Shown: piece by piece, positions 17,703 to 55,350 of the stretch
How the letters are laid out: the number at the start of each line of letters is the position of its first letter
How positions within the stretch are numbered: position 1 is the stretch's first letter
Notes under the pieces: model-generated
What the model was told of the DNA's origin: nothing
Database searches by the model: none
Seen by the model: only the letters and a program-made list of their open reading frames with translations
Origin: Colletotrichum lupini
Taxonomy: Eukaryota; Ascomycota; Sordariomycetes; Glomerellales; Glomerellaceae
Assembly: GCF_023278565.1 (NCBI RefSeq)
Contig: NC_064682.1
Coordinates: forward strand, 434,001 to 498,000
DNA: 64,000 nt
Reading direction: 5' to 3'
Made by a program: the position numbers and the translations under genes

Positions 17703-19006
17703 TCATAACCTTTTCTTTGTTATTGGCGCGGCTGACTTCTTGACCGATATTCCAGAAACGAGCCTGCCGTCCGGGAGGACTTGCTCACTTCTCCGCACTC
17801 CTGCGAGAATGAACGGATACGCGGTGTCGCAAGCCAAACACGTCGTCATGAGAAAGATGCCCATGAGATTGACGAAGAAACCATGGGCCTCTGGCCAGTA
17901 CCACCAGAGCAGACCGGTTGAGCCAATCCAACCGGTGAGGGTGCCAAGTGCCCTACAAAGCCTTTCGAACAAGTGATCAGCATAAGATGTGTGCTCATAT
18001 GACCCGAAACCCCCTCTCACCGAACGCAGCGGGTGCTTATCCTGACTGAGCAAACATGGCCGTCCAAATACGACAGAATGAAAAGAACGATGAAAACGAG
18101 AACCGGGAAAGAGACCCCACACATCGAAGCAACTCCAGCGGCACAGCATTCGAACCCATGACCTGCGGATAGCTCTTTTGGAATGGCATCAACACGCGTC
18201 AAGATGACACGTTTCGAGGATGAGAAAAGGAGCGGGTGTGAGTATATCGCACACCGGTGGCAGGGGAGACGACGCAAACACGGCATACAGTGAGATATTC
18301 TGACCCAACACGTCGGTGACCCTCATCACGTATGGATGTTTTCTCATGAGACGAGAGAAGCCAACCCGCCCACCGATCGGATGAGGCAAAAACAGCGAAG
18401 GAGGCCCAGACAAACGGAAAACACTCACCAGATCGCATAACTCGCGCCCCCAGAGTGACCCCTGACGAGCAACATGGCAAGACATCCCGTCCCAAGGGCG
18501 AACTGCGCCAGACCAGCCGTCCAGAACGCGAGCTCCGTACAATCGAATCCCTCCCGTCCGGCCCACCACTTGCCACTCTTGTCTCCGTACCCGGTACCGG
18601 GCGCCGACAGCCACCATTCCGCGACAGCGTAGTTCGCCGCGCAACCAAGGGCTACCATAATCGCAAGGATAGCGCCGATATTCTTCGCGACAAGCGGCGC
18701 GTGGCTCCACTCGTGTTTCGCGTTCTTGAGGGTCGTGTAGACGAGCGGTACGTCAAGAAGTAGCCAGACAAGGAAGCCGAGACGTTCGAGAGGGTGTTCA
18801 GCGACGCGAGCTGCGTAGATGAGTTCCCAGGAGAGGTTCAGCGCAAGGGCGAAGAGGGGCATGCCGTATGATTTTGTTCTGTGGGAGCGGATTGACATGA
18901 GTACATAGCACATGTCCCAGAAGATGGCGCCTGTGATGAGAAGGGCTCCGGAGGCTGGCACGACCCACGAGGGGACGTGAGGGGGAGGCGTGTCCGTCAG
19001 ACCCAT
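17703..19006 (-). CDS. Pyr4/PaxB-family transmembrane terpene cyclase, 278 aa
   Basis: Two exons, 19006-18429 and 17961-17703, are joined across a 467-nt intron with a GTGAGT donor and an AAAG acceptor. I chose this acceptor over a TAG nine bases further on because it gives WLCRALG after SYAIW, matching the W-x-S/C-R-x-L-G stretch I recall from PaxB. The start is the ATG of MGLTDTPPP; an upstream in-frame ATG would add an unusual leader. About seven hydrophobic segments are visible, with NLSWELIYA (family glutamate), DVPLVYTTLK, GASYAIW and YWPEAHGFF. These integral membrane enzymes cyclise epoxidised prenylated substrates in meroterpenoid and indole-diterpene pathways. The gene is intact, but no prenyltransferase, FAD monooxygenase, P450 or polyketide synthase lies in the window, so substrate and pathway are unknown. 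A family member with another role is possible. Confidence 0.85.
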
Positions 19007-19511
19007 TTTGAAGGTGGTGATCTGCTCAGATGCGCCGATTTGGGTGCCCTCGGACTGATGGTGATCGTTGCAAATTGTGATAGGGTATGGGTTTGGGGGA
19101 GAAATCAGACCATAGTAAGCGATAAAGAAGTATGTCTGCCTAAACGCCAAGGATACTCTGTAAGCAGAATGGACAAGCACCATCACCCACTGTTGGATTA
19201 ACTAACTGAGAAGAACACCTTATGCTTTTATTGGCTTCGTGTTAAGATGGCCTGAAGATAATTCTAGTTCAGTAACCCTTCGTGCAGGCACCTTGTTAAA
19301 GAGCGCACTCAAGAGCCAAAACCGGGCTAACGCGTCCAAAACGCGTCCAAGTTTGACGCGATACGGTGCGAGATTTGAAGGTCTCGTAAACTCCAATGAT
19401 TCAAAATCGCGTCTGTAGCATACAGCCGCTCGTGAGACGCACTTCGGCGGTCATCGGTACCGCTGTCGGTACATGGGTACTAAAAATGGTGAGTGGATCA
19501 TCACCACATCC
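19007..19511. other. spacer between terpene cyclase and tRNA-Gly
   Basis: About 500 bases separate the cyclase start codon from the tRNA. They should hold the cyclase promoter (minus strand) and tRNA upstream sequence. An open frame continues above the cyclase ATG but looks like leader, not protein. No TATA box stands out. Confidence 0.4.
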
Positions 19512-22359: not shown

Positions 22360-22364
22360 GTTAC

Positions 22365-22569
22365 TATTAGTATCCCTATTACAGGGTAGTTAGTTCGAAC
22401 CGTAGTTAATAAAGAGATTAATTGAATTATATAAATATCTACGTAATAAGTATAAAAAAGAGGTTCTAACTATAAGTTAGGCTAGCTACGATAATTATAA
22501 ATAGGGCCCCTAATTAGCCCCTATATAGTCGGCTATATACTATAATTAAATTAAATTTCTAATTTAATA
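22365..22569 (-). repeat. LTR of copy 1 (3' LTR in element orientation)
   Basis: It begins TATTAGTATCCC and shares the motif GTTCGAACCGTAGTTAA and the GC block AATAGGGCCCCTAATT with the other three LTRs. It is the most heavily RIP-mutated of the four, especially at its inner end. Confidence 0.92.
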
Positions 22570-25500
22570 CTAACTTTCTTTTTTTTTTATTAATTTAACT
22601 ACTATAATTAGAGGTATAATTCGACCTCGGGCCCGTTTACTAAATTATCTCCTTTTCCCCCTTTTCTTTACTTTTTTTATATAACCTATCCCTCTATTTA
22701 TATAATAACTTTTTTATTATTTATAAATTACTCTAATCCCTTATTTAGTACTACTTTTATAAAAGCGTTTATAAAGTTATTTTTATTATTAATTTAATAA
22801 ATTTTAAGTATCTTGCGCCTTTCGTACGATTACCTAAGGGCTATAATATTAATTATAAGCCTCTTTTCTTTCGTCGTTCTTAATGTAATAAAGTATTTAT
22901 ATAGTAAATAAGAATTAGTATAAATAACCGTTAGAATAAATAAAAAGCTAATTCGATCGGTAATCTTTTTTAGCGTTATTAAAATCGTATAAGAGAGGTT
23001 AATATTATTAATTATATTATAAACCTTTAACGTTAGTATACTTTTTATTACTTACTTATTTTTAGTTAATAAGTAGTAAATTATATTACTATATATAGTA
23101 AATTCGCTCTTACTTATACTCTTATTAACTAGGATAATAATATACTTTAATTATAAAATAAGGTCGTTATTATTCGTAAATAACTTATTAATAAAGACGT
23201 AAAGCTTATTAATTATAAGGTTAATTAAGTAATAAACGAGACCTTAATTAAGATTTATTTTTTATTACTTAAGCCGCTTATTAAGTACCTCGACGTCTTA
23301 TTTAGTTAGATTTATAACTTATACTACCCTAATATAATTAAAAGTTACCTCGGGCTAATAAATACTTATAATATATACCCCTTATACGAGCTTAGCCTTA
23401 TACCGCTTCTTAACGTTAGTTATATTCGGATTAATAAGGTTAATCTTCTCGCCCTACTCCTTTTATTAAAAAATAATAGTTTCCCCTTCGATTATAAAAA
23501 TCCTACTATTAAATACTAAGGGTATATTTATTATAAGGACCTCTTTTAGCTTTATTATAAAGCCCGCTTTTTAAAGCTTTTTATCCTTTTTTTTTATAAA
23601 ATTAATATTAAATAAGCTTAATATATTATTAGTTTATATTCTAACGATCCTAAATTAGTCGCCTTTATACTTTATAATTAATAAGCACGGGTCGTACGTA
23701 AAAGTAACTATTAATAATTAATTAATATAAAAATCGTAATAAGTAGCCTATTAATAAGTACCCGATTTTATAAGCTTATATAATAGCTTAAGCACTTTAA
23801 TAATCGTACTTTCTAAGTACTTACTAACTATTTCCTTCAATAAATAGGCTAGGATTTTTTTTATAAGCCCTATAGCTAATTAGGTATAGGCCTAGGTAAT
23901 ATTATAGCTCTAAATCTCGTATCCCTTTTTTTATAGCGATGCTATTAGTACTATTATTAATTATTAGCTATAGCACTATATAATAAGTAATTATATAAGT
24001 AGCGTTGCTTTTTTAATATCGCCGTACCCCTAAATTACGTATCTAAACTTCTTATACGGCTAGGATTTTCTTTTTCCTTTAATCTTACGAACTATTTATA
24101 ATTTAAATATATAGAGGTTTATATATTTTTTTAAGTTATATAAAATAAATCGATAGACCCCTCGATTATAAAGAGTATTTATTTTAATAAGATCTAATCC
24201 CTTATACGGCTTTTTAATAGTTATAATTACGCTTTTTTTACGTAGTTTAATTACTAGCTCGAAATCGGCTTTTTCTTTTATTATATAAAAGGTATTAATT
24301 ACCTCGTCGCTAGTAATAAATTACTATATCAGGGCTTATTATCGTAGTTTTTTACGACGTTTTATTAGTAATATTAGTGCCCTTTTAGTAATTTCCTCTT
24401 CTTTATTATTTATTAATATTATTACGACGATTTTATTAAGGATAATTTCTTATACCTCTTTTACGGGTTATATAGTTTCCCCTAGCTCTTTTTCTTTTTA
24501 TAAGTTAGAAATCACTTCGTTGAGATTTATATAATATAGTCTAACTATTATAATTAATACTTTAAGTAACTAGTTACGATTTCTTATAATTATATAAGAG
24601 CGCTCGTTAATAAAAATTAACTTATATAGCCTAGCTTATTATTAAGTAATTTCGCGCTATACTCGTATATCTAAATTTAGTAATATATTTAAATTACCCC
24701 CTATATTAGGCCTATTGCGTATAGTAATTATTTTATTAACTTATTTTTTTATACTTACTTTGCGTAGTACCCGTATTACTTTTTTAACTACTCGAGCTTA
24801 TTAACTTATACTTAGTAATAATAACGAGGCTAAGGTCGTTCTTAAATATACTCTAAATACTAATAGCATTAGTATAAGTCCGTTAGGCCCTATAATATCG
24901 TTATAGTATTTAAGTACTATTTAGAAGTATTCGTCGTTAGTAAAATCCGGATTTTCTTTTTTAATAATTCTAAACGCCCTTTTTAATTATTAATATACCC
25001 TTTTTACCTTTTTAATACTATAATACGCTTTAACGGGTACGACTTTTAACTATATACCGTAGGCCGTCGTATTATTTTTAAATTCTACTAACTTAAAGCT
25101 AGTACTAGCGTCGGTTCTAATACCGTTTAGCAGTCCTTAATATATATTAATTTAGCTTTTTCGTAAGGCTATTTATATTATCTTTACTTATAAATCCTAG
25201 AGGAATTGCCCTATTTAAAAAGATATAGTTATATTAATTATATATAGTACTAGCCGACTATTTAAATATAAAATATTGATAACGATTTCTTAGTTAAAGT
25301 TAAGCTTATTATATAATTTAAACTTAAATTTATATAGGCTTTATATATTTATTTAGTATTAATAATATACTTTCGTTAACTATTTTAGTACTCCTATTTT
25401 AATATTATTATTACTTAATTACTTTAAGAAGTTATATAGCCTCGTAACTAACGGGTACCCGAATCTTTAGTATAATCTTCTAAGCTTACTTTTTATTAAA

Positions 25501-28500
25501 TAATTAATTAACTTCGTATTATTAATAAACTTTATAAACGTATACCCCTATCGTCGTTCGACTATTTCGAAGTACTTATTACTAAAGATTCTATTCTTCG
25601 TATTATTAAATATAATTCCTAGTCGATTTATATTTTTTAAATATAAGAGAAATAGGGTATTAATAGGTAAAATATAAAAAGTTATCGTTCCGAAGTACGT
25701 CTCTATTTTTATTATACTTAGGGCGATAATTTCCTTACCTAAGCTAAAACTAATCCTTATAATACTCGCTATTAACGTATTAAGTATTACTAGCGCGATT
25801 TTTTATAGTGCCTAGAATTGCCCTTTTCCTCTAGTTAACTATTACAATACCTTAGTATTTAAAATAATTTTATAGAAATTATCTAGGCCGTACCTTTTAC
25901 TTATATAAAATACTTATACGAGCTTAGTATTTAAGGGATCTAAGTAGTATAAAAAGGACCCCTTTAGCTACCCCTAAATTTACTTAGTATTATATTCTTT
26001 CTTTTTAAATATTAAGAGAAATAGCGTCTTCTCTTTAATTATTAAGAAAATAGGCTTCGGCCCTATTAAATTCGCCCTTTTAGCTACCTTTATATTCGTT
26101 ATTTAAAGGACCTTTCCTTACTATTTATAAATAAAAGCTTATTTATTAAGAGCTTTAACTACCCTCTATTTATTTAGCCTCGTATATTTTCTAAAAACTA
26201 ACGGGGTAAAAAAAGAGTAGTTAATATTATTAATTTCGTTATAATTTAATTCGTTAGTATAGGGGGTAAGATCTTCTTTATTTTCTAAATCTCTTATAAG
26301 GGATATATATTTTAAGCTACTACTTTAACTATTATTACTAAGTTTTATACCCCTAGATCTACCCTTATATATAATAAGGAATTAGTTAAATTAATAAGGG
26401 CTAGTTTTACTATTTACTACCCTCGACTTTTTATACTATTTATATAATTTAGTACGCTCTTTTTTAAAGTAGTTACTTAACTAATATCTATTTTTTTTAT
26501 AAATATAATATTATTTCTTTTATTACCTTATTTATAAATTAAATCTCTACTTATTTAACGAATCTAGGCCTCTTTATTAATAATTACTATATCTAGCCTC
26601 TTTTCCTTTCTTATTATACGTTTAATTAACTTAATATTATTAATAAGGGCCGTCGTATATTTAAAAATAGGTTTAGCGTAGTATTCTTATTTTAATATTA
26701 AAACTAGATTTTAGCCTCGAGTAGAGCGTCTCGTAGTTTTTAAGTACTTAGTATAGGGTTATTTTTATTTTTAATATACGCTAAATTATAATATAAAAAT
26801 ATCCGACTTTTTACTCGTTTATCCCCTTATTTAGCTAGGTTTTTACTAGCTTATTAATTTAATTAATAAGCTTTTTAAGGATCTTTACTCGTAATTTACC
26901 TTTTATTATCCTAGCTATAAATATAAAAGAAATCGCTCGTAGCTTAAATAAGAGCTTTAGGTTCTTATTATAGGTCTTAAAGCGGCTTTAGATTACGTTA
27001 ATTATACTAAAAAAGTTGTTTTAATCGAGATTACGTACTACTTTATAATAATAATTAGAGGCTTTACTTACGAGTATAATATTAATTACTAAATAGTACT
27101 AATATTCCCTAATTCCGACTTTTTTATAATAATTATAAAATATCGTTAGGGTTTTTTATAAGACCTTATACTTCCCTTTAGAATATAATTTCTCTTTTAA
27201 AAAGATCTTTTTAAGGTCTATAAATTACTTCGTATTTATTATTAGATTTTTAGTATTTATATATAATCCCTGCGTCGCTACGTATTATTAATAACTTCGG
27301 GTTATTTACCTCCTTCTTTATTAACTAATTAGCGCCGAATTTCGTATTAATAGTAGTAACGAGTTATAAATCGAAATAAGTAAAATTATTAATTATTATA
27401 TTTCTAATATTATATTTTACCCCGGTATATCCTTTTATAACGATAGATTTTTGTTAGTAATTATAGAGAAGAAATTTAAGTTATTTACCCTTTTTTTAAA
27501 TTTATTAAAGTAATTATACGCTTTATTAACCTATATTTAGTTCTATAATACGAATTCCTTTTTTATAATTATTATTATTAGTATTTTATATAGCTTTTAT
27601 AATTATAATTGCGCTAATAATACCCCTCGCTCGTAAAGGAATTTATTAACTACTTTTATAATTCCTAGGCTTGCGCTTACGAACTATTTATCTAGCTAAT
27701 AACTAAGGTTATTTATAATCTCGTAAAATAGGGGTTACCCCTATAGCCCCTTTTTTTTTATAAACCTTAGTTAAATAGATTAATACTACGTTAATTTACT
27801 TACCGTTAAGCTAATTCGTAATTTAGTATATTTACGTCCCCTAATAGTCCGGGTTAATATTTACTTACTTATAAAAGATTAGAATTCTATTTAAGATCGG
27901 GTTTCGTCCTCTTCTTCTTTACCCTAACTCGCTAAGGGTCGTATTCTAGCTTATACTTATATTAATAATTATTAATATATTTAATCTTAATAAAAATATA
28001 TTTAATCCGCGCGCTAGTTATAATAAATCCGTACTTTTATTACTTAATAAATTTATTAAAGTTTAAGAGATTCCCGCTTCCTCTTATTATTTTATTACTA
28101 CTCTCGTTTTTACTATTTTTAGTAATTACTATTACTTTTTTAAATCGCTAACTATCGTACTTACTAAGATCCTCTTTTTTATTTAATATAAAAAGGTAGG
28201 TTTTAGTAGTTCTTTTTTATAATAATAGTAGTAGACGTTTATATTATTATAAAAAGATATAATAATTAGTCTCGGGATCTTTATTAGTTACCGATTTCTG
28301 CTATCTTATATACTTCTAGCTTCTTAAGCCTCGTACTCTTTATAATTTCTAAATAACTTCTTTCCTTAACCTACCTCTTTTAGGGTAGTATTTTATAAAA
28401 ATAATTAAAAATAAACGCTAAGTAGCTCGTAAAAGAGCTATATAAGTTATTAAGAACCGTATAGACCGTTAAGTATAGTTAACGAAGTTAAGCCCTTTTT

Positions 28501-29583
28501 TTTATAAAATTATAGATTTTAAAAACTTATTAAAAAATACTTACTTATTACTTATATATAATAAGGTTAAATACTTAGAGATTTTATTTTTTATAGCCTC
28601 TTAGTACCTTATTTTATATCTTTTAAGTAGTCTTTTTTATAACTTAATTATAATTAAGTAATTATTACTTATTAATAATCCCTTTTATTACTTAATTAAG
28701 TTTTTAAAATTAGTAATCTCGTATTAAGAGCTAATATAAAAAGAAGCCCTTTAATAGCCCTCTAAAAAATTCTTTTTTTTCCCCCTTAGATCCTTATTTT
28801 TTTAGCCTTTTTTTAAGCTAATAATAACTTTAATAAGAGGTCGTAAGACTACTTTAAAATAGCTACTTTTTTTTTAAATTAATTTCCGAAATCCGTAATA
28901 CTCTTAACTTAATATTATTAAGACCTCTAAATCCCCTCCTCTTTTATTAAACCGTCTTTTATATTATATTTTTAAATAATACCTAGGGGGTAGTTAAGGG
29001 AACTACGAAGAGGTTATTTAAGTTATAGGCTTAAAGTCGTATTTATAAAATCCTTATAATAATAAACTTTTCTATATATTATAGATTTTTTAACTTAATA
29101 ACTCTTATAAAATTACTTTTATTATTAAATAAGAATATTTATATTTAAAAATCCCCTTTTTTAATTATATAGTACTCTTTTATATTATATTATTAAGCTC
29201 GTTCGTTATATTAATTAATTAAGTAAGTAGTTATTACGTAAGTATTTTTTTTTACTAATTTAACTAGTTAATTTCTAATTACGGGCCGGCTATAAAAAAG
29301 TTATTTAGTAAAAAAGCTACTCGGGGTAATAATAAAAAGCTAGTTATTTAAGTAGTTTTATTAATTAACGTAATTTAACGTAATAAATATCGACCTTTTA
29401 TAAGTAATAAAGGGCTACGATTACTTAATTCCGTATAGTATTTAAGAATTACCCCTTTTTTTATTTATTTTTATAAAGTTAATTAGTATAAATCTCTTAT
29501 CCTATATAATATTAAGAGGTCGTCTTTTTTACGTAGCGAGATACCTTACTAATCTATAATAATAAAATTTAATTATTAATTAA

Positions 29584-29788
29584 TATTAATATCCCTATTA
29601 TAAAGTAGTTAGTTCGAACCGTAGTTAACGAAAAGATTAATTAAATTATATAAATATTTACGTAGTAGGTATAAAAAGGAGGTTCTAACCGTAGGTTAGG
29701 CTGGCTATGATAATCGTAAATAGGGCCCCTAATTGGCCCCTGCGCAGTCGGCTGTATGCCGCGGTTAAATTGGACTTCCAATCCGATA
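29584..29788 (-). repeat. LTR of copy 1 (5' LTR), partly undamaged
   Basis: Same 205-bp length as its partner. Its right end, abutting the GC-normal island, is nearly free of RIP (CTGCGCAGTCGGCTGTATGC, then ATTGGACTTCCAATCCGATA), while its left end is AT-converted. It is followed by the target copy GTTAC. Confidence 0.92.
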
Positions 29789-29968
29789 GTTACGCTCGCA
29801 TCGGACATTAAATAGCTACTGACACGATGCGAGCTCAAGGCTTCATCTATCAAGACATTAAGAATACATGAAGTACTATCGCGCTCAGTGAGTCGCTGTT
29901 CAATTCATTGTATCTGATGAAAGTTCCATGTCCATCGCGATGCACTGGCTTCACGATACTTTGTCAAC

Positions 29969-31471
29969 TCATCTCTCCTGCCTATTCGGTCTGCCCTCCT
30001 TTGGAGTTTCCATCGCTTTGGCGCTGGCCCTGATTCTGCGTATCTCCCAGAGCCCCCGCAAAATGGAACCAAACAACATGATAACAGCAAAAGCGAAAAT
30101 GGACAATGCCACCCACACACCATAAATCACCAACAGCGCCAAAAAGCCTGCGAGCATCGCCACCGCGCTCCACAGAACCACCCACGCACACCACGGTACC
30201 TTTTCTGCTGTTTTTTCCGCCAGCTGAAGTCTGAGATTTCTCATCTTTAGTGCTGCTTTGAGATCTTCCTCATATTCATCCTGCAAGTCAAAGCTGATGG
30301 ACTACAAGATGGAGCATCGCCAGGTCAACATGGATGTCCTATAGCTCTCACACAGGATTTTCCGAAACAAGAGAAAGTGAAAGATAGGGGAAAGACAGAA
30401 TAGACTCACAGTAGCCCCTGACTCCATCAAGGGGGTCCTTGATCTGTTGGGTGTCGAAAGTCCGGAGTCCTGCCGACCGGTAAGGTTGTATCGCCCTGTC
30501 ATGTTCATCTCTTCCTGATCTACACCGTCTACCTGTCTAATTGCAGTATTCGAACGCCCCGTGATGCGAGTTGGCAATGGTAGCGTGACATGTGTGTGCG
30601 GTTGGCGTTGGAAATCCGCTGAAGTGGTCGTATTTGACGTTTCGCTCATTGGAATGGCCTCTTCTGTTGTCGAAGGGGTAGCGGCGTGAAGTGCTACATC
30701 GCTCTCCATGAAATTCTCAGGGCTCTCGGGTATCTCAATTGTCGATGCTACTCTGCTGTATTCTATTTCTTCTACATATTTGTCAGTCAGCCTATTGTTA
30801 CTAAATTCACTTTTGAGAGAGAGAGAGACAGACGTAACTCACCTTTGGCGTCAAACACGTTGATGATAAAGACGATGAGGAGGAGTAGAGGCAAAATCTG
30901 ACCAAACTTAGGTTCTAACAACGATTCGATTTCTTCCTTCCCCGCCAAAGCAATCATAGAGACTAGGTCGTAAAGTAGATACACCGTAAATGACATGTCT
31001 TGGAAGAGACTCCAAAATATAGAATCTAACATGTCTTCGACTAAGACAGGGGTCGCTAGTCTTATAGTCTGGAAATGGTTGGTGTGCTTGTCAGACAATT
31101 TCCGGAGCATTGCTTTGGTCTTTTGGATTTCTTTTCGTGTCTTTTGCTGATAAAGAATCCTGAAGTATTTTCTAGACTCCTCGGTGAAGCACAGAAGGCG
31201 CAAAATGTTGTCTTGTAGAGGAAGCAATAAGTAAAGCCGGGCAATAGCGTCGTAGTAACTTTTGCCAAATATCCAGATAAGTGCAACTGCAGCGAGAATT
31301 GACGTATCAGTGGTTCCCGAACCTCTTATTGTGCAAGCGGCAACTTGCTTTAAGCTTACGGGGGTGAATAAGTTATCAAGGATGCTGCTGACGAGAAGAC
31401 AGCTGACTAGTAATGTCAGGAAATTTATACGTAACTTTGCCTGCCTCTTATGTAGTCTTAAATATGGTGCC
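29969..31471 (-). pseudogene. 3' part of a membrane-protein gene split by retrotransposon copy 2
   Basis: This is the downstream part of the gene starting at 39009. Exon 2 resumes at 31466 (31467-31471 is the duplicated target GTGCC) and runs to 30843. Exon 3 is 30771-30410 and exon 4 is 30280-29969. Donors are GTGAGT twice; acceptors are GTAG and GCAG. The joined frame has no internal stop. Several hydrophobic segments follow the junction residues APYLRLHKRQAK: INFLTLLVSCLLVSS, TSILAAVALIWIFGKSYYDA, FTVYLLYDLVSMIALAG and QILPLLLLIVFIINVF. A hydrophilic Thr/Ser-rich stretch comes next, then a last pair of membrane segments near WVVLWSAVAMLAGFLALLV. The fragment alone lacks its ATG, so it is not expected to make protein. 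Function is unknown; it belongs to a fungal-specific multi-spanning membrane family. Confidence 0.85.
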
Positions 31472-31676
31472 TGTCGGATTAGAAGTCTAATTCGACCGCG
31501 GCATATAGCCGACTGCGCAGGGGCCAATTAGGGGCCCTATTTACGATTATTATAACTAGCCTAACCTATAGTTAAAACCTCCTTTTTATACTTATTACGT
31601 AAATATTTAGATAGTTTAATTAATCTCTTTATTAACTACGGTTCGAACTAACTACTTTATAATAAGAATACTAATA
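31472..31676 (+). repeat. LTR of copy 2 (5' LTR)
   Basis: It begins TGTCGGATTAGAAGTC and ends ACTAATA. The first ~70 bases beside the island are little mutated; AT conversion increases inward. It matches the other LTRs in reverse complement. Confidence 0.92.
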
Positions 31677-34600
31677 CTAATTAGTAATTAAATTCTATTA
31701 TTATAGATTAGTAAGGTATCTCGCTATATAAAAAAGACGACCTCTTAATACTATACGGAATAAGAGATTTATACTAATTAACCTTATAAAAATAGATAAA
31801 AAAAGAAGCGATTTTTAAATACCGCACGGAATTAAGTAATTATAGCCCTTTATTACTTATAAAAGGTCGACGTTTACTACGTTAAACTATATTAATTAAT
31901 AAAACTACTTAAGTAACTAGCTTTTTATTATCGCCCCGAGTAGCTTTTTTATTAAACGACTTTTCTATAGCTAGCCCGCGATTAGAAATTAACTAGTTAA
32001 ATTAGTAAAAAGAAATACTTACGTAATAACTACCTACTTAATTAATTAGTATAACGAACGAGCTTAATAATATAATATAAAAAAGTACTATGTAATTAAA
32101 AAAAGGGATTTTTAAATATAAATATTCTTATTTAGTAATAAAAATAACCTTATAGGAGTTATTAAACTAAGAGATTTATAATATATAAAAAAGTTTATTA
32201 TTATAAGGATTTTATAAATATAACTTTAAGCCTGCGATTTAAATAACCTCTTCGTAGCTCTTTTAATTACCCCCTAAGTATTATTTAAAAATATAATATA
32301 AAGGACGGTTTAATAAAAGAAGAGGGGATTTAAAGGTTTTAATAATATCGAGCTAAGAGTATTACGGATCTCAGAAATTAACTTAAAAAAAAAGCGGCTA
32401 TTCTAAAGTAGTCCTATAACCTCTTATTAAAGTTATTATTAGCTTAAAAAAGGCTAAAAAGATGAGGATTTAAAAAGAAAAGAAAAGAATTTTCTAAAGG
32501 GCTACTAAAGGGCTTCTTTTTTATACTAGTTCTTAATACAAAATTACTAATTTTAAGAAATTAACTAAAGAAGCTATTTAAAAATTATAAAGAGTATAAG
32601 GCTTAAGAAGCTAAAAGTATATAGGATAATAGAAATTAATAACTAATAAAGATCCTAAGACTAATTACTATATTTTTTTATAATAATATAAACGTTTACC
32701 GCTATTATTATTAAAAAGAACTACTAAAACCTACCCTTTTATATTAAACGAAAAAGAAGATCTTAGTAAGTATAATAGCTAGCGATTTAAAAAGGTAGTA
32801 ATAATAATTAAAAATAATAAAAATAAGAGTAATAATAAAATAGCGAGAAAAAGCGAGAATCTCCTAGACCCTAATAAATTTATTAAGTAATAAAAGCACG
32901 GATTTACTATAACTAATACGTAGATTAAATATATCCTTATTAAAATTAAATACGCTAGCGACTATTAATATAAGTATAAGCTAAAGTACGACCCTTAGTA
33001 AGTTAGGGTAAAGAAAAAGGGGATAAAACCCGATTTTAAATAGAATCCTAATCCCTTATAAATAGGTAAATATTAACCCGGATTATTAAAGAACGTAAAT
33101 ATATAGAATTACAGATTAGCTTAACGGTAAGTAAATTAACGTAGTATTAATCTATTTAACTAAGGTTTATAAAAAAAAGGGGCTATAGGGGTAACCCCTA
33201 TTTTATAAAATCGTAAACGACCTTAACTACTAACTAAATAAATAGTTCGCGAGCGTAAGCTTAAGAATTATAAAAGTAGTTAATAAATTCCTTTATGGGC
33301 GAGGGGTATTACTAGCGTAATTATAATTATAAAAGCTATACGAAATATTAATAGTAATAATTATAGAGGAGGAATTCGTATTATAAAACTAAGTATAAGT
33401 TAATAAAGCGTATAATCGCTTTAACGAATTTAAAAAAAGAGTAAACGACCTAGATTTCCTCTCTATAATTATTAATAAAAATCTATTATTATAAAAGGAT
33501 ATACCGGGGCAAAATATAGCACTAAAAATACGATAATTAATAATTCTACCTATTTCGATCTATAACTCGTTACTATTATTAATACGAAATTTAGTACCGA
33601 TCGGCTAATAAAAAAGGAAGTAGACGACCCGAAGTTATTAATAATATATAGCGACGTAGGGATCGTATATAAATACTAAAAATTTAATAATAAATACGAA
33701 GCAATTTATAAACCTTAAAAAGATCTTTTTAAAAGAGAAATTATATTCTAAAGGGAAGTATAAGGTCTTATAAAAAACCCTAACGATGTTTTATAATTAT
33801 TACGAAAAAGTTAGAATTAGGGAATATTAGTACTATTTAGTAATTAATATCGTACTCGTAAGTAAAGCCTCTAATTATTACTATAAAGCGGTACGTAATT
33901 TCGATTAAAACGACTTTTTTAATATAATTAACGTAATTTAAAGCCGCTTTAAGACTTATAATAAGAACTTAAAGCTCTTATTTAAGCTATAAGCGATTTT
34001 TTTCGTATTTATAACTAAGATAATAAAGGGTACATCGTAAATAGAGATCCTTAAAAAGCTTATTAATCGAATTAATAAGCTAGTAAAAACCTAGCTAAAT
34101 AAAGGGATAAACGAGCGGAAAGTCGGATATTTTTATACCGTAATCTAGCGTATATTAAAAATAAAAATAACCTTATACTAAGTACTTAAAAACTACGAAA
34201 CACTCTACTCGAGGCTAAAATCTAGCTTTAATATTAAAATAAGAATATTATACTAAACTTACTTTTAAATACACGACGGCCCTTATTAATAATATTAAAT
34301 TAATTAAATATATAATAAAAAAGGAAAAGAGGCTAGATATAGTAATTATTAATAAGGAGGCTTAGATTTATTAAATAAGTAGAGATTTAACTTACGAATA
34401 GGGTAATAAAAAAAGTAATATTATATTTATAAAAAAAAAAAATATTAGTTAAGTAACTATTTTAAAGAAGAGCGTACTAAATCGTATAAATAATATAAAA
34501 AGTCGAGGGTAATAGATAGTAAAACTAGCCCTCGTTAGTTTAATTAATTCCTCGTTATATATAAGGGTAGATCTAGGGGTATAGAACTTAGTAACGGTAG

Positions 34601-37600
34601 CTAAAGTAGCGGCTTAAAGTATATACTCCCTATAAGAGATTTAGAAAATAAAAAAGATCTTACCCCCTATATTAACGAATTAAATTACGATAAAATCGAT
34701 AATATTAACTACTCTTTTTTTACCCCGTTAGCCTCTAGAGGATATACGAGGCTAAATAAATAAAAAATAATAAAAGCTCTTAATAAGTAAGCTTTTATTT
34801 ATAAATAGTAAAGGAAGGTCCTTTAAATAATAAATATAGAGGTAGTTAAAAGGGCGAATCTAATAGGGCCAAAGCCTATTTTCTTAATAATTAAGGAGAA
34901 AACGCTATTTTTTTTAATATTTAAAAAAAAAGAACGTAGTACTAAGTAAATCTAGGGGTAGCTAGAGGGGTCCTTTTTATACTACTTAGATTTTTTAAAT
35001 ACTAAACTCGTATAAATATTTTATATAAGTAAAAAGTACGGCCTAGACGATTTTTATAGGATTATCTTAAATACTAGGGTATTATAATAATTAACTAGAA
35101 GAAAAAAGTAATTCTAAGTATTATAAAAAATCGCGCTAGTAATGCTTAATACGTTAATAGCGAGTATTATAAGGATTAGTTTCGGCCTAAGTAAGGAAAT
35201 CGTCGCCCTAAGTATAATAAAAATAGAGATATACTTTAGAACGATAACTTTTTATATTTTACCTATTAATACCCTATTTCTCTTATATCTAAAAGATATA
35301 GATCGACTAAGTATTATATTTAATAATATAAAGAACAAAATCTCTAGTAATAAGTACTTTAAAATAATTAAATAACAATAGGGGCATACGTTTATAAAGC
35401 TTATTAATAATATAAAGTTAATTAATTACTTAACGGAAAGTAAGCTTAAAAAACTATACTAAAGATTTAGGTACCCGTTAGTTACGAGGCTATATAACCT
35501 CTTAAAGTAATTAAATAATAATAATATTAAAATAGGGGCGCTAGAGTAGTTAACGAAAGTATATTACTAATACTAAATAAATACGCAAAGCCTACGTAAA
35601 TTTAAGTTTAAATTGCGTAATAAGCTTAACTTTAACTAAGAAATCGTCGTTAACATTTTCTATTTAAATAGTTAGCTAGTATTATATATAATCGACGTAA
35701 CTATATCTTTTTAAATAAGGCAATTCCTTTAGGATTTATAAGTAAAGATAGTATAAGTAGCCTTATAAAAAAGCTAGATCGATATATACTAAGGACTATT
35801 AAATAGTATTAAAACCGACGCTAGTACTAGCTTTAAGTTAATAAAATTTAGGGATAATATAACGGCTTATAATATATAGCTAAAAGTCGTACTCGTTAAA
35901 GCGTACTATAATATTAAAAAAGTAAAAAGGGTATATTAGTAGTTAAAAAGGGCGTTTAAAATTATTAAAGAGGAAAATCCGGATTTTACTAACGACAAAT
36001 GCCTTTAGTTAGTACTTAAATACTATAACGATATTATAAGGCTTAACGGACTTATATTAACGCTATTAATATTTAGAGTATATTTAAGAATAACCTTAGC
36101 CTCGCTACTATTACTAAGTATAAGCTAATAAGCCTAAGTAGTTAAAAAAATAATATAAGTATTATATAAAGTAAGTATAAAAAAGTAAGTTAACGAGGTA
36201 ATTATTATACGTAATAGGCCCGATATAGGGGATAATCTAAATATACTACTAAATTCGGATATATAAATATAGCACAAAAATACTTAATAATAGGCTAGGC
36301 TATATAAGTTAATTTTTATTAACGAGCGCTCTTATATAGTTATAAGAGATCGTAATTAGCTACTCGAAGTATTAATTATAATAGTTAGACCGTACTATAT
36401 AGATCTTAATAAGGTAATTTTTAACTTATAAAAAGAAGAAGAGCTAGGGGAAACTATATAACTTATAGCAGAGGTATAGGAAATTATCCTTAATAAAATC
36501 GTTATAGTAGTACTAATAAACGACGAAGAAGAGGAAATTATTAAAAGAGCACTAATACTACTAGCGAGACGTTATAAAAGACTATAATAGTAAGCCTTAA
36601 TACGGTAATTTATTACTAATAACGAGGTAATTAATACTTTTTATATAATAAAAAAGAAAGCCGATTTCGAGCTAGTAATTAAACTATATAAAAAAGGCGT
36701 AATTATAACTATTAAAAAGCCGTATAAGGGATTAGATCTTATTAAAATAAACACTTTTCGTAATCGAGGGGTCTATCGATTTATCCTATATAACTTAGAA
36801 AAATATATAAACCTTTATATATTTAAATTATAAATAGTTCATAAGATTAAAAAAAAAGGAACACCCTAGCCGTATAAGAAGTTTAAATACGTAATTTAGG
36901 GGTATAGTAACGTTAAAAAAGCAATACTACTTATATAATTGCTTATTATATAGCGCTATAGCTAACGATTAATAATAGTACTAATAGTATTACTATAGAA
37001 GAAGGGATACGAGATTTAGAGCCGTAATATTACCTAGGCCTATACTCAATTGGCTATAGGGCTTATAAAGAAAATCCTAGCCTATTTACTAAAAGAAATA
37101 GTTAGTAAGTACCTAAAAAGTACGATTATTAAAATACTTAAGCTATTATATAGGCTCGCAAAATTAAGTACTTATTAATAGGCTATTTATTACGATTTTT
37201 ATATTAATTAATTATTAATAGTTACCTCTACGTACAACCCGTACTTATTAGTTACGGAGTACGAAGGTAATTAATTTAAAATCGTTAGAATATAAACTAA
37301 CGATATATTAGGCCTATTCGATATTAACTTTATAAAAAAGGAGGATAAAGAGCTTTAAAAAGCGGGCTTTATAATAAAGCTAAAAGAGGTCCTTATAATA
37401 AATACCCCCTTAGTATTTAATAGCGGGATTTTTATAATTAAAAAGAAAACTATCGTTTTTTAATAAAAGGGGTAGGGCGAGAAGATTAACTTCGTAAATC
37501 TAAATATAACTAATATTAAGAAGTAGTATAAGGCTAAGCTCGTATAAGGGGTATATATTATAAGTATTTATTAACTTAAAATAACTTTTAATTACGCTAG

Positions 37601-38359
37601 AGTAGTATAAGCTATAAATCTAACTAAATAAAACGTTAAGGTACTTAATAAGCGGCTTAAGTAGTAATAAACAAATCTTAATTAAAGTCTTGTTTATTAC
37701 CTAATCGACCTTATAATTAATAAGCTCTATATCTTTATTAATAGGTTATTTATAAATAATAAAGACCTTATTTTATAATTAGAGTATATTATTATCCTAG
37801 CTAACGACAGTATAAATAAGAGCGAATTTACTATATATAGTAATATAATCTACTACTTATTAACTAAAAATAAATAAGTAATAAAAAGTATATTAACGTT
37901 AGAGGTTTATAATATAATTAACGGCGTTAACCTCTCCTATATAATTTTAATAACGCTAAAAAAGATTACTAATCGAATTAGCCTTTTACTTATTTTAATA
38001 GTTATATATACCGATTCTTATTTACTATATAAATACTTTATTAAATTAAGAATAATAAAAGAAAAGAGGCTTATAATTAATATTATAGCCCTTAAGTAAT
38101 CGTATAAAAAGTGCGAAATACTTAAGATTTGTTAAATTAATAATAAAAATAACTTTATAAACGTTTTTATAAAAGTAGTATTAAATAAGGGATTAAAGTA
38201 ATTTATAAGTAATAAAAAAGTTATTATATAAATAAAAGGATAGGTTATATAAAAAAAGTAAAGAAAAGGGGAAAAAGGAGACGATTTAATAAACGGGCCC
38301 GAGGTCGAATTATACCTCTAATTATAATAATTAAATTAATAAAAAAAAGAGAAAGTTAG

Positions 38360-38564
38360 TATCGAATTAGAAGTCTAATTCGATTGCGGTATATAGCCGA
38401 CTATATAGGGGCTAATTAGGGGCCCTATTTATAATTATCATAGCTAGCCTAACTTATAGTTAGAACCTCTTTTTTACACCTATTACGCAGATATTCAGAT
38501 AGTTTAATTAATCTCTTCGTTAACTACGGTTCGAACTAACTACCCTATAATAGGGATACTAACA
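38360..38564 (+). repeat. LTR of copy 2 (3' LTR)
   Basis: It is the same 205 bp as its partner, preceded by a purine tract. Its outer ~75 bases, next to the gene, keep GC-containing words such as ACGCAGATATTCAGATAG and ACTACCCTATAATAGGG, while the inner part is AT-converted. It ends GATACTAACA before target copy GTGCT. Confidence 0.92.
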
Positions 38565-39009
38565 GTGCTAGACCAATTAGGCAATTTGTATGAACACCGA
38601 AAGATATAAAGGCAAGTGATACGCCCACAGAAAACGAAAAGGACGATATCGTGAGTATCTGGGAGTATAACGCGACCAGAAGTGCGAAGCTAGTGACTGA
38701 AAGCTGATCGCTGATGGTCAAGAGAAGATGCTCGTATTTCACGCTACGCAAGCGAGAAATCTTCGATTCGTATGCCCCTAGCCTATTGTGTATCATGGTG
38801 TCCATATGTGTAAAGCCTTCAGGGTTCGCCCTGCGAGTGACGTAGGCCATGGTCATGATGACATGAGATGCTAGGACTGGGAAAACGAAGGATAGCAGGA
38901 CCTTATTCGCGTTAGTACTGAGACAAACCCCTTGAAAGATAAAGGCTTACCCCAAACCCCATGATATCAGGGTCGGTCAGATTCTTGGCATCATCTTCGC
39001 AATTAACCA
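38565..39009 (-). pseudogene. 5' part of the membrane-protein gene split by retrotransposon copy 2
   Basis: Exon 1 (39009-38950) encodes MVNCEDDAKNLTDPDIMGFG. A 48-nt intron follows with GTAAGC donor, ACTAAC branch point and AAG acceptor. Exon 2 starts at 38901 (VLLSFVFPVLASHVIM) and runs to the insertion site after CLIGLA. The DPDI-x-G-x-GV start and the later ISDQLSVTSFALLVALYSQ fit a recurrent fungal membrane family I remember as NPDIxGIGV / SDxQLVTG proteins of unknown role. If translated now, it would enter the LTR and stop after six residues (TAG near 38545), giving about 138 residues instead of 564. Excising the element with one target copy joins CTA GCA C to CA TAT in frame (LAPYLRL), so the gene was intact at insertion. 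I describe the break; no function is assigned. Confidence 0.87.
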
Positions 39010-40510
39010 TGTTGCCGTGCGACTAAGAATGTCCGCCGTAGTGGGAGAATTGTGTTAAGATGCCCTATGACGTGATAATCCATGGGAAGGTAGCGTTTTT
39101 AGGAGAATTTCGAGTGTACATGTATGTATACAATCAGTCTGCACTCGGGCAAACCAGCTGTTCTCTGGGCCCTTTATAGCTAAGCAGCAGGTTCCGGCCA
39201 GCATTCATGCTGCAATTTCATACGCCTCACGACACAAATTCACAAGACAAGATTATTATTCCACTTCGAGAGTATGCCTGGCAATTGTGACGTCACGAGT
39301 GGACGAAGCTCTCAATAGTTATGCAGGCTGTCATTCACAAGCTGTGCCGTGCGGCAGGCTCTGAAGATGGAGGTGGACAAAGCTGGCTGTACACGCAGGT
39401 ATATTCATTAGCCGCCACTTGATTGGCAAATTGCGGTAAAATATCTGCAGAACCTGTCAATACGAACACGAATTCTGCTTAGAAAGTGTTTTTAGCAACA
39501 ATGGAAAGGCGATGTTGCCTTGGCATGATATATCGCATAAGGTGGTTGGGGTATCTGTCAGTCCCAATCCCACTTCCTGCGACGGAATTACGGCCAATGG
39601 CCACATATAGAGAATTCTAGTAATACATAAGTGTGCATTGACGGTACAAGGCGATACATTCATATACGTCAAGGGTCAAGTACCTACGATCTCTCGCGAA
39701 AGTGATAGAGGAACGTGTGAAATGTCTGTTCCCATGTCATACTAAGCGTGATGTCGCGGCATTCTAACCTGTCATTGGTGACAGCTGCCGCGTTGCACAA
39801 GTATGGTCAGCTCCCTGCAGCAAATACCGAATCAGGGAGACCTCATGTGGTTTATTTGAGCCATTACTATTTGTGCTCATGATTAAAGCTTGCGGCCTTG
39901 GCTACTTATAGCCAATGCACTCTTAGGGTGTCATCGGGCTGATTGGCTCAGAAGGAAGCAACGTTTCGACATGTTTTGAGGCTGGCGTTGTTTTGCTAGT
40001 TACTTCTCTACTTCAGCGTCTTGAAGTGCAGACTCCTCTAGATTCTGTTATCATTTTCGAAAACATGAGAGGAAGAAAGCTCTAATGACTGCCAACGTTC
40101 GGATTCCACCCAGAACCTATCGCTCGAATTCCTGCGAATACCCTCACTCGAAATTTTGATACTTCAACGTTTACCAATTGTACTTGATTCCATCTATTGA
40201 GGTGGTTTGGTGAGAGAAGTCATGCTGAGCGGGGATGACTGGGTTGATCTTGGAAGTGTACCGATACCGTAGGAGTTAGAAATGAGTTCGAAGTCTCTGG
40301 CAATAGATATTTTGTTGTTGTCTTCGCTACATACTTGGGTTATTGATTGAGTATCAATGAAGTCAATGTTGCAGCCGAATCCAAGTAAGAACTTAGGAGG
40401 GAATCTTTTCCAAAATATCACCGTAATAATCTAAGACCACATGCAGTATCCAGCAGCACCTCTTGGACCTAAGGTAGTTCCGTATCCAAAAGTGCACACC
40501 CTCTGTTTGT
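39010..40510. other. spacer between the split gene and the secreted-protein gene
   Basis: About 1.5 kb of balanced composition with no frame I can support on either strand. It should contain the promoter of the split gene (minus strand, just above 39009) and the 3' region of the gene ending at 40511. Confidence 0.45.
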
Positions 40511-41891: not shown

Positions 41892-42245
41892 CTAATTGTC
41901 ATAATAGTCGTGGCCATACTCATCAACGTAGTCATCGCCATAGTCATCGCCGCCACAGTCATTGCCGCTATGGTCGTCGCCTCCATCATCATACCCGTCA
42001 TCAACATAGCCGTCATCAAAGGTGTTACCAGCATAGTTATCGATGTTGTGAACCTCGTCAGCACCCGGCTCATCATCATGAATAACCTCGCCATATCCGG
42101 TGGTGTGCACCATACTGTCCCCGTAGGCACCCGGCTCATCATCGTAAATGACTTCAGCATGTCCGGTGGTGTGCATGATACCACAGTCGACGTCGATGCC
42201 GGCATCTTCAGCGCCCTGCATATCATCATAAACAACCTCGCCATA

Positions 42246-42323
42246 AGACCCCACCCCACACGACGGATCACCCCCTACGACAGATCACCCAATTCGGTAC
42301 AATTCAGTCAAAAACCACTAATT
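42246..42323 (+). repeat. left terminal inverted repeat of the MITE
   Basis: It contains the words CACACGACGGATCACCCCC, CTACGACAGATCACCCAATT and AAAACCACTA. GATCACCC occurs twice as a short direct repeat. It differs from the right end mainly by C/T and G/A changes. Confidence 0.85.
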
Positions 42324-42961
42324 CTACCTACTTCATTTTATAATATAAAAAATATATAAAAATTACTTTTGGATATAGAATATATAGTTTTCCTACTAAA
42401 ATAATTTTTATAAATTATAATCTATTATAATAATCAAGATATTATCAAATTAAATATAACGTTTTTTACTATATAAAAATACGATTTCTAACTTTATGAA
42501 AAATAAATAAACCTAAATATTTTAAAATACTATAATTTTTCAAATATTTTTCTTAGCTTAAATATACTTTTTTTAGCATTATACTAATTACATAAGCTTA
42601 GGAAATTCAAGTTTTTATAAATACTACTTATTATAATATAACTTAATATTTCTATATAATAATACTTATATTACTAATAAAAGACTATTTATATAAGTTT
42701 AATTTAAATCTTTTAAAAATAATCAACTTTAAAATTTTATTTTTTCTAATAAATAAAAGAGTTATATAACATAGTATAATGTTAGTGTTTATATAAAAAC
42801 TATTAGTAAATACTAACATTTAAAAGCATATTTTAAATCTAATATTGTTATATAATATAATATAAAATAATTTCTTTTAAATATTTTTCTATACTAATTA
42901 TATTTTCTTATAGCTTGTGTATTTTTTAAAATATTTATTTTTTAATTATCCATATATATAT

Positions 42962-43039
42962 GGAATAGCGGTTTTGGCTGAATCTGGCCGAATTGGGTGA
43001 TCTGTCGTAGGGGGTGATCCGTCGTGTGGGGTGGAGTCT
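42962..43039 (-). repeat. right terminal inverted repeat of the MITE
   Basis: Reverse complement of the left terminus. It keeps C or G at several positions where the left end has T or A (for example ATTCAGCC against ATTCAGTC), so it is the less mutated end. Confidence 0.85.
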
Positions 43040-43179
43040 TACCCGGTGGTGTGCACGAGATGATCAACGCCGCCATCGTCCCGATACTCCTCTGGACCCC
43101 TGTAAGTCTGCTCCTGGACCTCTTGCTCATCTCCTTCGTCCAGGAACGGTTGAGCCCCAGACGGCGGTACTTGATCAAC

Positions 43180-54900: not shown

Positions 54901-54920
54901 AAAAATACAAAAGAAAAAGT

Positions 54921-55047
54921 TCTCCACGAGGAATCGAACCAAAAACTTGAGTGTCAGATCAATGGTCGAGGGGACTGAGATCCACACTCGGGTCTTCCCC
55001 CATGAACCCCTCGACCACCTCACCCGAATCACTCAAGTGACAGGATG
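54921..55047 (-). repeat. tRNA-like palindromic repeat, copy A
   Basis: About 127 bp similar to copy B. On the minus strand it has a B-box GGTTCGATTCC (54941-54931) and, upstream, an A-box-like TGGTCGAGGGG (55018-55008), in the order of a Pol III internal promoter. It also contains nested inverted repeats: ACTTGAGTG (54946-54954) with CACTCAAGT (55031-55039), and TGGTCGAGGGG (54964-54974) with CCCCTCGACCA (55008-55018). The T stem and acceptor stem do not pair well, so I do not call a functional tRNA. Confidence 0.55.
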
Positions 55048-55220
55048 ACCATTTAGTAGTAATATATACCTTCTAGGTTGCCCAGCGGGAGGTGAGAAGG
55101 TGAAAGGTCAGGTGACCGCGGACCGCGGGCGGTCAGCGTTCTCCCAAATGAATATGCCAGAAGGAGGGAAGGAGGCAGGTAAGATTAGGAAGCCCGCAAA
55201 TATAAAAGGGGAAAAAAGAA

Positions 55221-55350
55221 GACCTCCTCTATGAAGAATCGAACAAAAAGCTCAAGTGTCGTATCAGTAGCCAAGAGGACTGAGATCCACACTCGGGTCT
55301 TCCCCCAAGAACCCCTCGACCAACTGACCCGAATCACTTGAGTGATAGGA
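55221..55350 (-). repeat. tRNA-like palindromic repeat, copy B
   Basis: Same orientation as copy A, about 300 bp away. The core GACTGAGATCCACACTCGGG is identical, and GAACCCCTCGACCA is nearly so, while the outer parts differ by scattered substitutions. Its B-box is weaker (TGTTCGATTCT) and the A-box partner is altered, so it is the more decayed copy or an older duplicate. Confidence 0.55.

Follow-up and report, generated by a model that had tools for sequence, protein, structure and literature searches.

The disruption of host genes by retrotransposons is a general phenomenon in filamentous plant pathogens, and repeat-induced point mutation (RIP), whose mutations are made by methyltransferases of the RID/DIM-2 type, is known to leak from repeats into the single-copy genes that adjoin them. 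Both phenomena bear on a locus of the lupin anthracnose fungus, Colletotrichum lupini, described here, which lies in a window of 64,000 nucleotides (C9:434001-498000, in a searched genome of 63.4 Mb and 12 contigs). In this window, a gene encoding a putative membrane protein is interrupted by a long terminal repeat (LTR) retroelement, element B, and followed by a second, inverted copy of the same family, element A. The explanation that we consider very probable as a whole is that an insertion split the gene, that a second inverted copy came to lie beside it, that RIP mutated the elements, and that the locus was left disabled but still readable. The event is ordinary in kind, being one more gene lost to a retrotransposon. 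Beyond what a first-pass annotation had drawn from the sequence, the analysis brings out the inverted copy A, the apparently antisense coding strand of B, a public gene model with a 7,176-nt intron, and eroded models of the gene in related species.

The split gene and the inserted element

The host gene occupies the minus strand in four exons, from 39010 to 29969, and it is exon 2 that carries the insertion. The features on which the argument depends are the following, in window coordinates:

38951..39010, minus strand: exon 1, with the ATG at 39010; matches the N-termini of the locus's own public model (P0001) and of a C. melonis protein (P0002)
38565..38901, minus strand: upstream part of exon 2, ending in the target copy AGCAC (38569-38565)
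31472..38564, plus strand (coding strand inferred, antisense to the gene): LTR retroelement B, RIP-destroyed, 7,093 bp, with LTRs at 31472-31676 and 38360-38564
31467..31471, minus strand: downstream target-site copy GGCAC, from reading of the sequence
30843..31466, minus strand: downstream part of exon 2, from a translated-search match to homologues
30410..30771, minus strand: exon 3, from reading of the sequence
29969..30280, minus strand: exon 4 with the stop codon; the public model begins exon 4 at 30301, in the same frame
22365..29788, minus strand (coding strand inferred): LTR retroelement A, RIP-destroyed, of the family of B, 7,424 bp, inverted with respect to B

Element B is an LTR retrotransposon, with two LTRs and a 5-bp target duplication. 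Its LTRs are direct repeats of 205 bp each, whose outer ends read TG...CA and whose inner ends read TA, as RIP would leave them. The two target copies (AGCAC at 38569-38565, GGCAC at 31471-31467) agree at 4/5 bases, and their single difference is a TpG/TpA change of RIP type, by eye silent in a leucine codon, with the RIP-type base in the upstream copy. The first-pass annotation had proposed that an LTR retroelement had split the gene and duplicated its target site, and the 7,093-bp element with its near-perfect 5-bp duplication bears this out; its coordinates were good to within one base, the start codon lying at 39010 rather than 39009 and the stop codon ending at 29969. A full-length retrotransposon of a high-copy family inserted into exon 2 of a single-copy gene and generated the 5-bp duplication.

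The remaining introns of the gene are of the GT...AG type, with lengths of 49, 71 and 129 nt. When the target copy is counted once, 397 nt of upstream and 1,298 nt of downstream coding sequence add up to 1,695 nt, that is, 564 codons and a stop, so that the 564-codon restorable frame claimed earlier is recovered; both pieces are open throughout, with neither a stop nor a frameshift. As the locus stands, the frame of the upstream piece runs into a stop codon at 38545, within the LTR of B, and for this reason the gene has most likely been disabled in this strain.

Several hydrophobic segments in the encoded protein point to a multi-pass membrane protein. No Pfam family exceeded the cut-off in the homologue P0002; scans of four homologues gave five families, each in one member and at E-values of 0.14-0.61, none over the cut-off, and the best sequence match among solved structures in the PDB reached only E = 0.55. 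In the genome, the upstream coding piece (piece A) found one further match (L038, C2:2254209-2254577) with 31% identity, an E-value of 2.6e-6 and one internal stop, which is the only other member of the family seen in C. lupini at E <= 0.001, and the sole further match of the downstream piece (piece B) lay at E = 0.1. Judging from these searches, the host gene is single-copy.

Homologous proteins across the junction

A comparison of the two fragments with known proteins had been set as a test by the first-pass annotation. The gene pieces were searched apart, with about 8,000 candidates scored per search, and five proteins were found in all, four of them named as Colletotrichum, including the locus's own model P0001 (CLUP02_16056), which is the best protein match of piece B. 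In PMC11645255, the label CLUP02 belongs to strain IMI 504893. Three of the five (P0002, P0004 and P0005) run unbroken over the junction, the others being P0001 and P0003. In P0002, from C. melonis, piece A (132 aa) corresponds to residues 1-131, with 90.8% identity over 131 aa, and piece B to residues 133-342 (BLASTP E-values of 1.4e-77 and 3.2e-120, respectively). In translated searches, the two pieces correspond to residues 1-96 and 93-308 of P0004, and to residues 7-154 and 151-374 of P0005 from the distant C. chrysophilum. Both pieces therefore match the same proteins at adjoining residues, three homologues are continuous, and the protein of a related species is unbroken at the insertion site; together with the hydrophobic segments, this agrees with the earlier claim of one host membrane-protein gene.

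The relatives do not all have an orderly model of this gene. In P0003, a C. cuscutae model, the stretch equivalent to that between 38659 and 30963 is missing, and the tail tracks another frame of C. lupini exon 4 over 65 residues at 98.5%; the gene may have decayed independently there, or the gene model or the assembly may be in error. The C. melonis model, for its part, passes over the boundary of exon 3 and has no match to exon 4. These annotations, considered without the underlying DNA of C. cuscutae and C. melonis and subject to possible annotation or assembly errors, suggest that the gene is being lost in this group, where it may be dispensable, both models showing damage or truncation of a different kind from that in C. 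lupini.

RIP and where it ends

The two elements bear the pattern of RIP-mutated repeats: an excess of C-to-T and G-to-A changes, low CpA and high TpA, all largely confined to the repeats. Over 205 bp, the LTR pair of B differs by 29 transitions and 0 transversions (27 and 0 in 201 positions of a shorter local alignment), and that of A by 38 transitions and 0 transversions (35 and 0 in 199); across 7,092 sites compared between the full copies A and B, transitions number 831 and transversions 22. CpA reaches only 0.05 of expectation in B and 0.04 in A; the corresponding values are 0.90 and 1.05 for the two gene pieces and 1.17 for window positions 1-21900. TpA in the elements stands at 1.40-1.42 of expectation. 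With CpA nearly exhausted, many of the remaining differences between A and B fall in other contexts, CpT/ApG foremost. The claim of a RIP-destroyed element next to nearly untouched gene pieces is thus upheld by the CpA values, and RIP largely halts at the edge of the element. At the protein level, 180 positions at which two homologues agree were counted, and C. lupini departs from them at 15 (14 of these distinct, since a duplicated alanine was counted in both pieces); a RIP-type change fits one of the 15. Mutations of RIP type, attributed to that process from their pattern, are close to saturation in both copies and left the adjacent single-copy DNA of the gene, including the stretch that lies between the two, largely untouched.

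The C5 DNA methylase domain (PF00145) has four matches in this genome (L051-L054), two of them in an open frame of 765 aa and the others in frames of 1351 and 689 aa; these are candidates for a RIP machinery that would still be present.

The inverted copy and the element family

Element A sits 180 bp past the stop codon of the host gene and is flanked by an exact 5-bp target duplication, GTTAC (22360-22364 and 29789-29793); its LTRs measure 205 bp and its ends read TA, again as RIP would leave them. It inserted, in inverted orientation, just past the 3' end of the gene, and the single-copy stretch that lies between it and B measures only 1.68 kb.

A 73-aa plus-strand frame of B (37878-38096) recurs at >=75% identity in all 150 places scored of 758 candidates, and because of this recurrence the coding strand of B appears to run antisense to the host gene; among the same 150 scored places, no open frame longer than 142 aa surrounds the piece. 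Assignment of the element to Copia or Gypsy was attempted and failed, as neither RVT_2 nor RVT_1 was seen at the copies of the window: the elements appear neither among the 53 RVT_2 rows of the genome nor among the 150 RVT_1 places scored of 309 candidates, and seven stop-free fragments searched for gag-pol domains gave no Pfam match over the cut-off, absences that RIP damage could explain equally well. A fragment near one LTR is presumably RNase-H-like.

Forty LTR matches gave 30 loci, of which L006 (the window's own) was replaced by B and L007 was left out, so that 28 loci (L008-L035) together with window copies A and B contributed 30 aligned end pieces. Their 435 pairs have medians of 0.0029 transversions and 0.119 transitions per site, in a sample biased towards resemblance to the window's LTR, by which all copies but A and B were selected. 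By these figures, the sampled copies resemble the product of a single burst. Locus L016 shares an 8-base flank, and blastn found no copy of the host gene there.

Age of the insertion and the unbroken frame

The insertion is recent, because no transversion separates the arms of either LTR pair. The 95% bound that follows from zero transversions is 0.0073 per site between LTR arms for both pairs pooled and 0.0145 for B alone. With indels assumed at 10% of substitutions and transversion fractions of 1/3 and 1/2, the coding pieces should have accumulated the following changes:

From the A-B distance (0.0031): 5-8 substitutions and 0.2-0.3 nonsense changes; probability of no nonsense change 0.76-0.83, or 0.34-0.49 with indels added
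At the pooled 95% bound: 12-19 substitutions and 0.4-0.7 nonsense changes; probability 0.52-0.65, or 0.08-0.19 with indels
At the bound from B's LTR pair by itself, which limits the age least: 25-37 substitutions and 0.9-1.3 nonsense changes; probability 0.27-0.42, or 0.01-0.04 with indels

The insertion being young, the continuity of the frame is therefore expected, and would be surprising only at the extreme of the age bound. The first-pass annotation had offered a recent insertion or a strict confinement of RIP as alternatives; both hold, given the absence of LTR transversions and the normal CpA of the gene pieces, and it is the either/or that was wrong. Nor is the unbroken frame that it stressed remarkable at such an age, 0.2-0.3 nonsense changes being expected from the A-B distance. 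The locus would still be readable because little time for ordinary mutation has passed, not through selection, as the absent LTR transversions suggest.

Alternative explanations

The public annotation of this locus offers a different account, with the following feature at its centre:

31388..38563, minus strand: "intron" of the public model CLUP02_16056 (P0001), with its donor GTTAGT in the LTR and its acceptor TCAG in exon 2

If this model were right, the RIP-degraded element would be spliced out as a 7,176-nt intron, the gene would still yield a protein of 544 aa, and the element would have become an intron. Joining 38564 to 31387 does give P0001 letter for letter, the frame remains open, and a branch-like CTGAC motif stands, by eye, upstream of the acceptor. 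Among 32 listed LTR copies, including the window's own and two second LTRs, 23 begin with TGTTAGT (8 with TATTAGT and 1 with TGTTGGT), so that the donor is a feature of the family; the idea that RIP had created the donor was dropped because this start is usual in the LTRs. Nevertheless, the other introns of the gene measure merely 49-129 nt, and the proposed intron takes up, besides B minus its outermost base, 79 nt of exon 2 together with the downstream copy of the target, leaving one residue in place of 27; a hydrophobic stretch at residues 12-36 of piece B, which is found in P0002, P0004 and, in diverged form, P0005, is thereby largely lost. We regard a functional intron as improbable, and the fused model is probably an artefact of gene prediction bridging a repeat. 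Repeat masking can be guessed at as its source, and passages of PMC11212070 and PMC11645255 describe the use of repeat finding or masked genomes in related annotations. The locus thus exposes a probable public annotation error, in which a dead element is bridged by a 7-kb intron, and other models that bridge RIP-damaged elements in this genome may be wrong likewise.

An insertion by B can also be imagined as old, its two halves having been kept open by selection, for instance as two separate truncated proteins. Neither piece has a stop or a frameshift, and the 95% bound from B's LTRs would permit the 25-37 substitutions given above; on the other side, the LTR pairs of both copies lack transversions, and open frames are expected anyway, the probability of no nonsense change being 0.52-0.83 (0.08-0.49 with the assumed indel rate). 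The absence of LTR transversions disfavours an old insertion, which has little chance of being correct. It is less likely still that recombination between A and B moved or inverted the segment between them, in place of a simple insertion cutting the gene. In favour of it, A and B have opposite orientations, match at 88% over about 7 kb and enclose the 3' part of the gene; against it, each keeps its own matching duplication (GTTAC/GTTAC and AGCAC/GGCAC), and the gene has the same direction before and after B. With both duplications in place, the pair does not derive from an inversion of the intervening DNA, save for two compensating events, and this account is extremely improbable.

Several observations weigh against the preferred explanation, a recent insertion that split the gene and was followed by RIP confined to the repeats. 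The target copies of B differ at one of five bases, and in the public annotation a single gene, with a product of 544 aa, extends across the element. The identity of P0002, about 90% for piece A (119/132) and 76% for piece B (162/212), is low for a member of the same species complex, and P0002 could be a paralogue rather than an orthologue. B's LTRs alone give a weak limit on age, with the lowest of the probabilities listed above (0.27-0.42, and 0.01-0.04 with assumed indels). Finally, in the 280-bp bin of exon 2 nearest to B, TpA/ApT is raised to 1.28 (control mean 0.70, SD (standard deviation) 0.68), so that RIP may have leaked slightly into exon 2 beside B; the RIP substrate content of the same bin is normal (1.12, control 1.27, SD 0.27; n = 141).

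RIP and sexual reproduction in C. lupini

RIP operates before meiosis, according to passages of PMC5576322, where it is also discussed in the asexual C. higginsianum and where ancestral or cryptic sex is cited as an explanation for C. cereale. For C. lupini and the other species of clade 1, PMC10189766 records no sexual state, and a passage of PMC13373834 reports no complete alpha-pheromone system in the screened species of the complex outside clade 5. Rare sexual reproduction in C. lupini is not ruled out in PMC11645255. That paper also states that, over 16 strains, Copia content follows genome size; its main text has no word that starts with 'rip', and a literature search joining C. lupini with repeat-induced point mutation returned only a C. 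graminicola paper.

If P0002 is an orthologue, the insertion and its RIP would be later than the split from C. melonis, and there would therefore probably have been sex in the C. lupini line after that split. The same genome carries a young Copia family. Of the 53 RVT_2 rows in the genome, 29 are stop-free at 164-166 bits, 20 of these in a 1,438-aa frame, and five fetched parts (L039-L043) share 99.84-100% mutual identity; they are AT-rich with a positive composite RIP index (0.56-0.57) and, as far as their sequences go, carry no sign of RIP since spreading. A relative of this family at 90% identity (L045) is RIP-damaged. It can be put forward tentatively, with the balance leaning somewhat against it, that the locus gives a date for sexual reproduction in a pathogen supposed to be clonal, the C. 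lupini line having had sexual cycles after leaving C. melonis and these having ceased before the near-identical open Copia family spread. If this were true, RIP-dead and RIP-free insertions would form a clock for the loss of sex; with its empty site in a relative, the locus is a modestly useful marker for RIP, and hence for sex, within the history of C. lupini.

Other features of the window

On the minus strand at 18428-19201, an open reading frame (ORF) carries a Pyr4-like transmembrane terpene cyclase domain (E-value 2.9e-38) and is possibly part of a terpenoid gene cluster adjoining the AT-rich block. Also on the minus strand, at 57050-59622, two neighbouring ORFs, one with PH and PB1 domains and the other with a RhoGEF domain, probably encode a Cdc24-type Rho exchange factor. 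An AT-rich segment at 42244-43041 aligns with its own reverse complement over 856 columns, with a 65% match and with flanking ORF ends that look alike by eye, and a 137-bp direct repeat with 82% identity lies at 54909-55350. Scans of the window for tRNAs and against Rfam at the gathering threshold gave no matches, and Pfam searches of ten further ORFs in its left part gave one match, below the cut-off.

Comparison with known systems

Like the LTR disruptions known from filamentous pathogens, this one consists of a full-length element, complete with both LTRs, that lies in a coding exon and is flanked by a 5-bp duplication; unlike them, it struck an uncharacterised, patchily found membrane-protein gene, has an inverted copy at the 3' end, and is hidden by the annotation. 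With known cases of RIP leakage it shares a single-copy stretch lying between two RIP-mutated repeats, but clear leakage is missing here, CpA being normal and only one of 15 C. lupini-specific residue differences being of RIP type, so that the locus is a case of RIP largely stopping at the edge of a repeat despite the mere 1.68 kb between inverted copies. The RIP described for 'asexual' Colletotrichum, C. higginsianum and C. cereale, in passages of PMC5576322 likewise consists of a C-to-T bias in the repeats of a fungus that has no known sexual state; here, unlike there, the RIP-mutated copy occupies a site that is empty in a relative's protein, which would place RIP after the split of the two lines.

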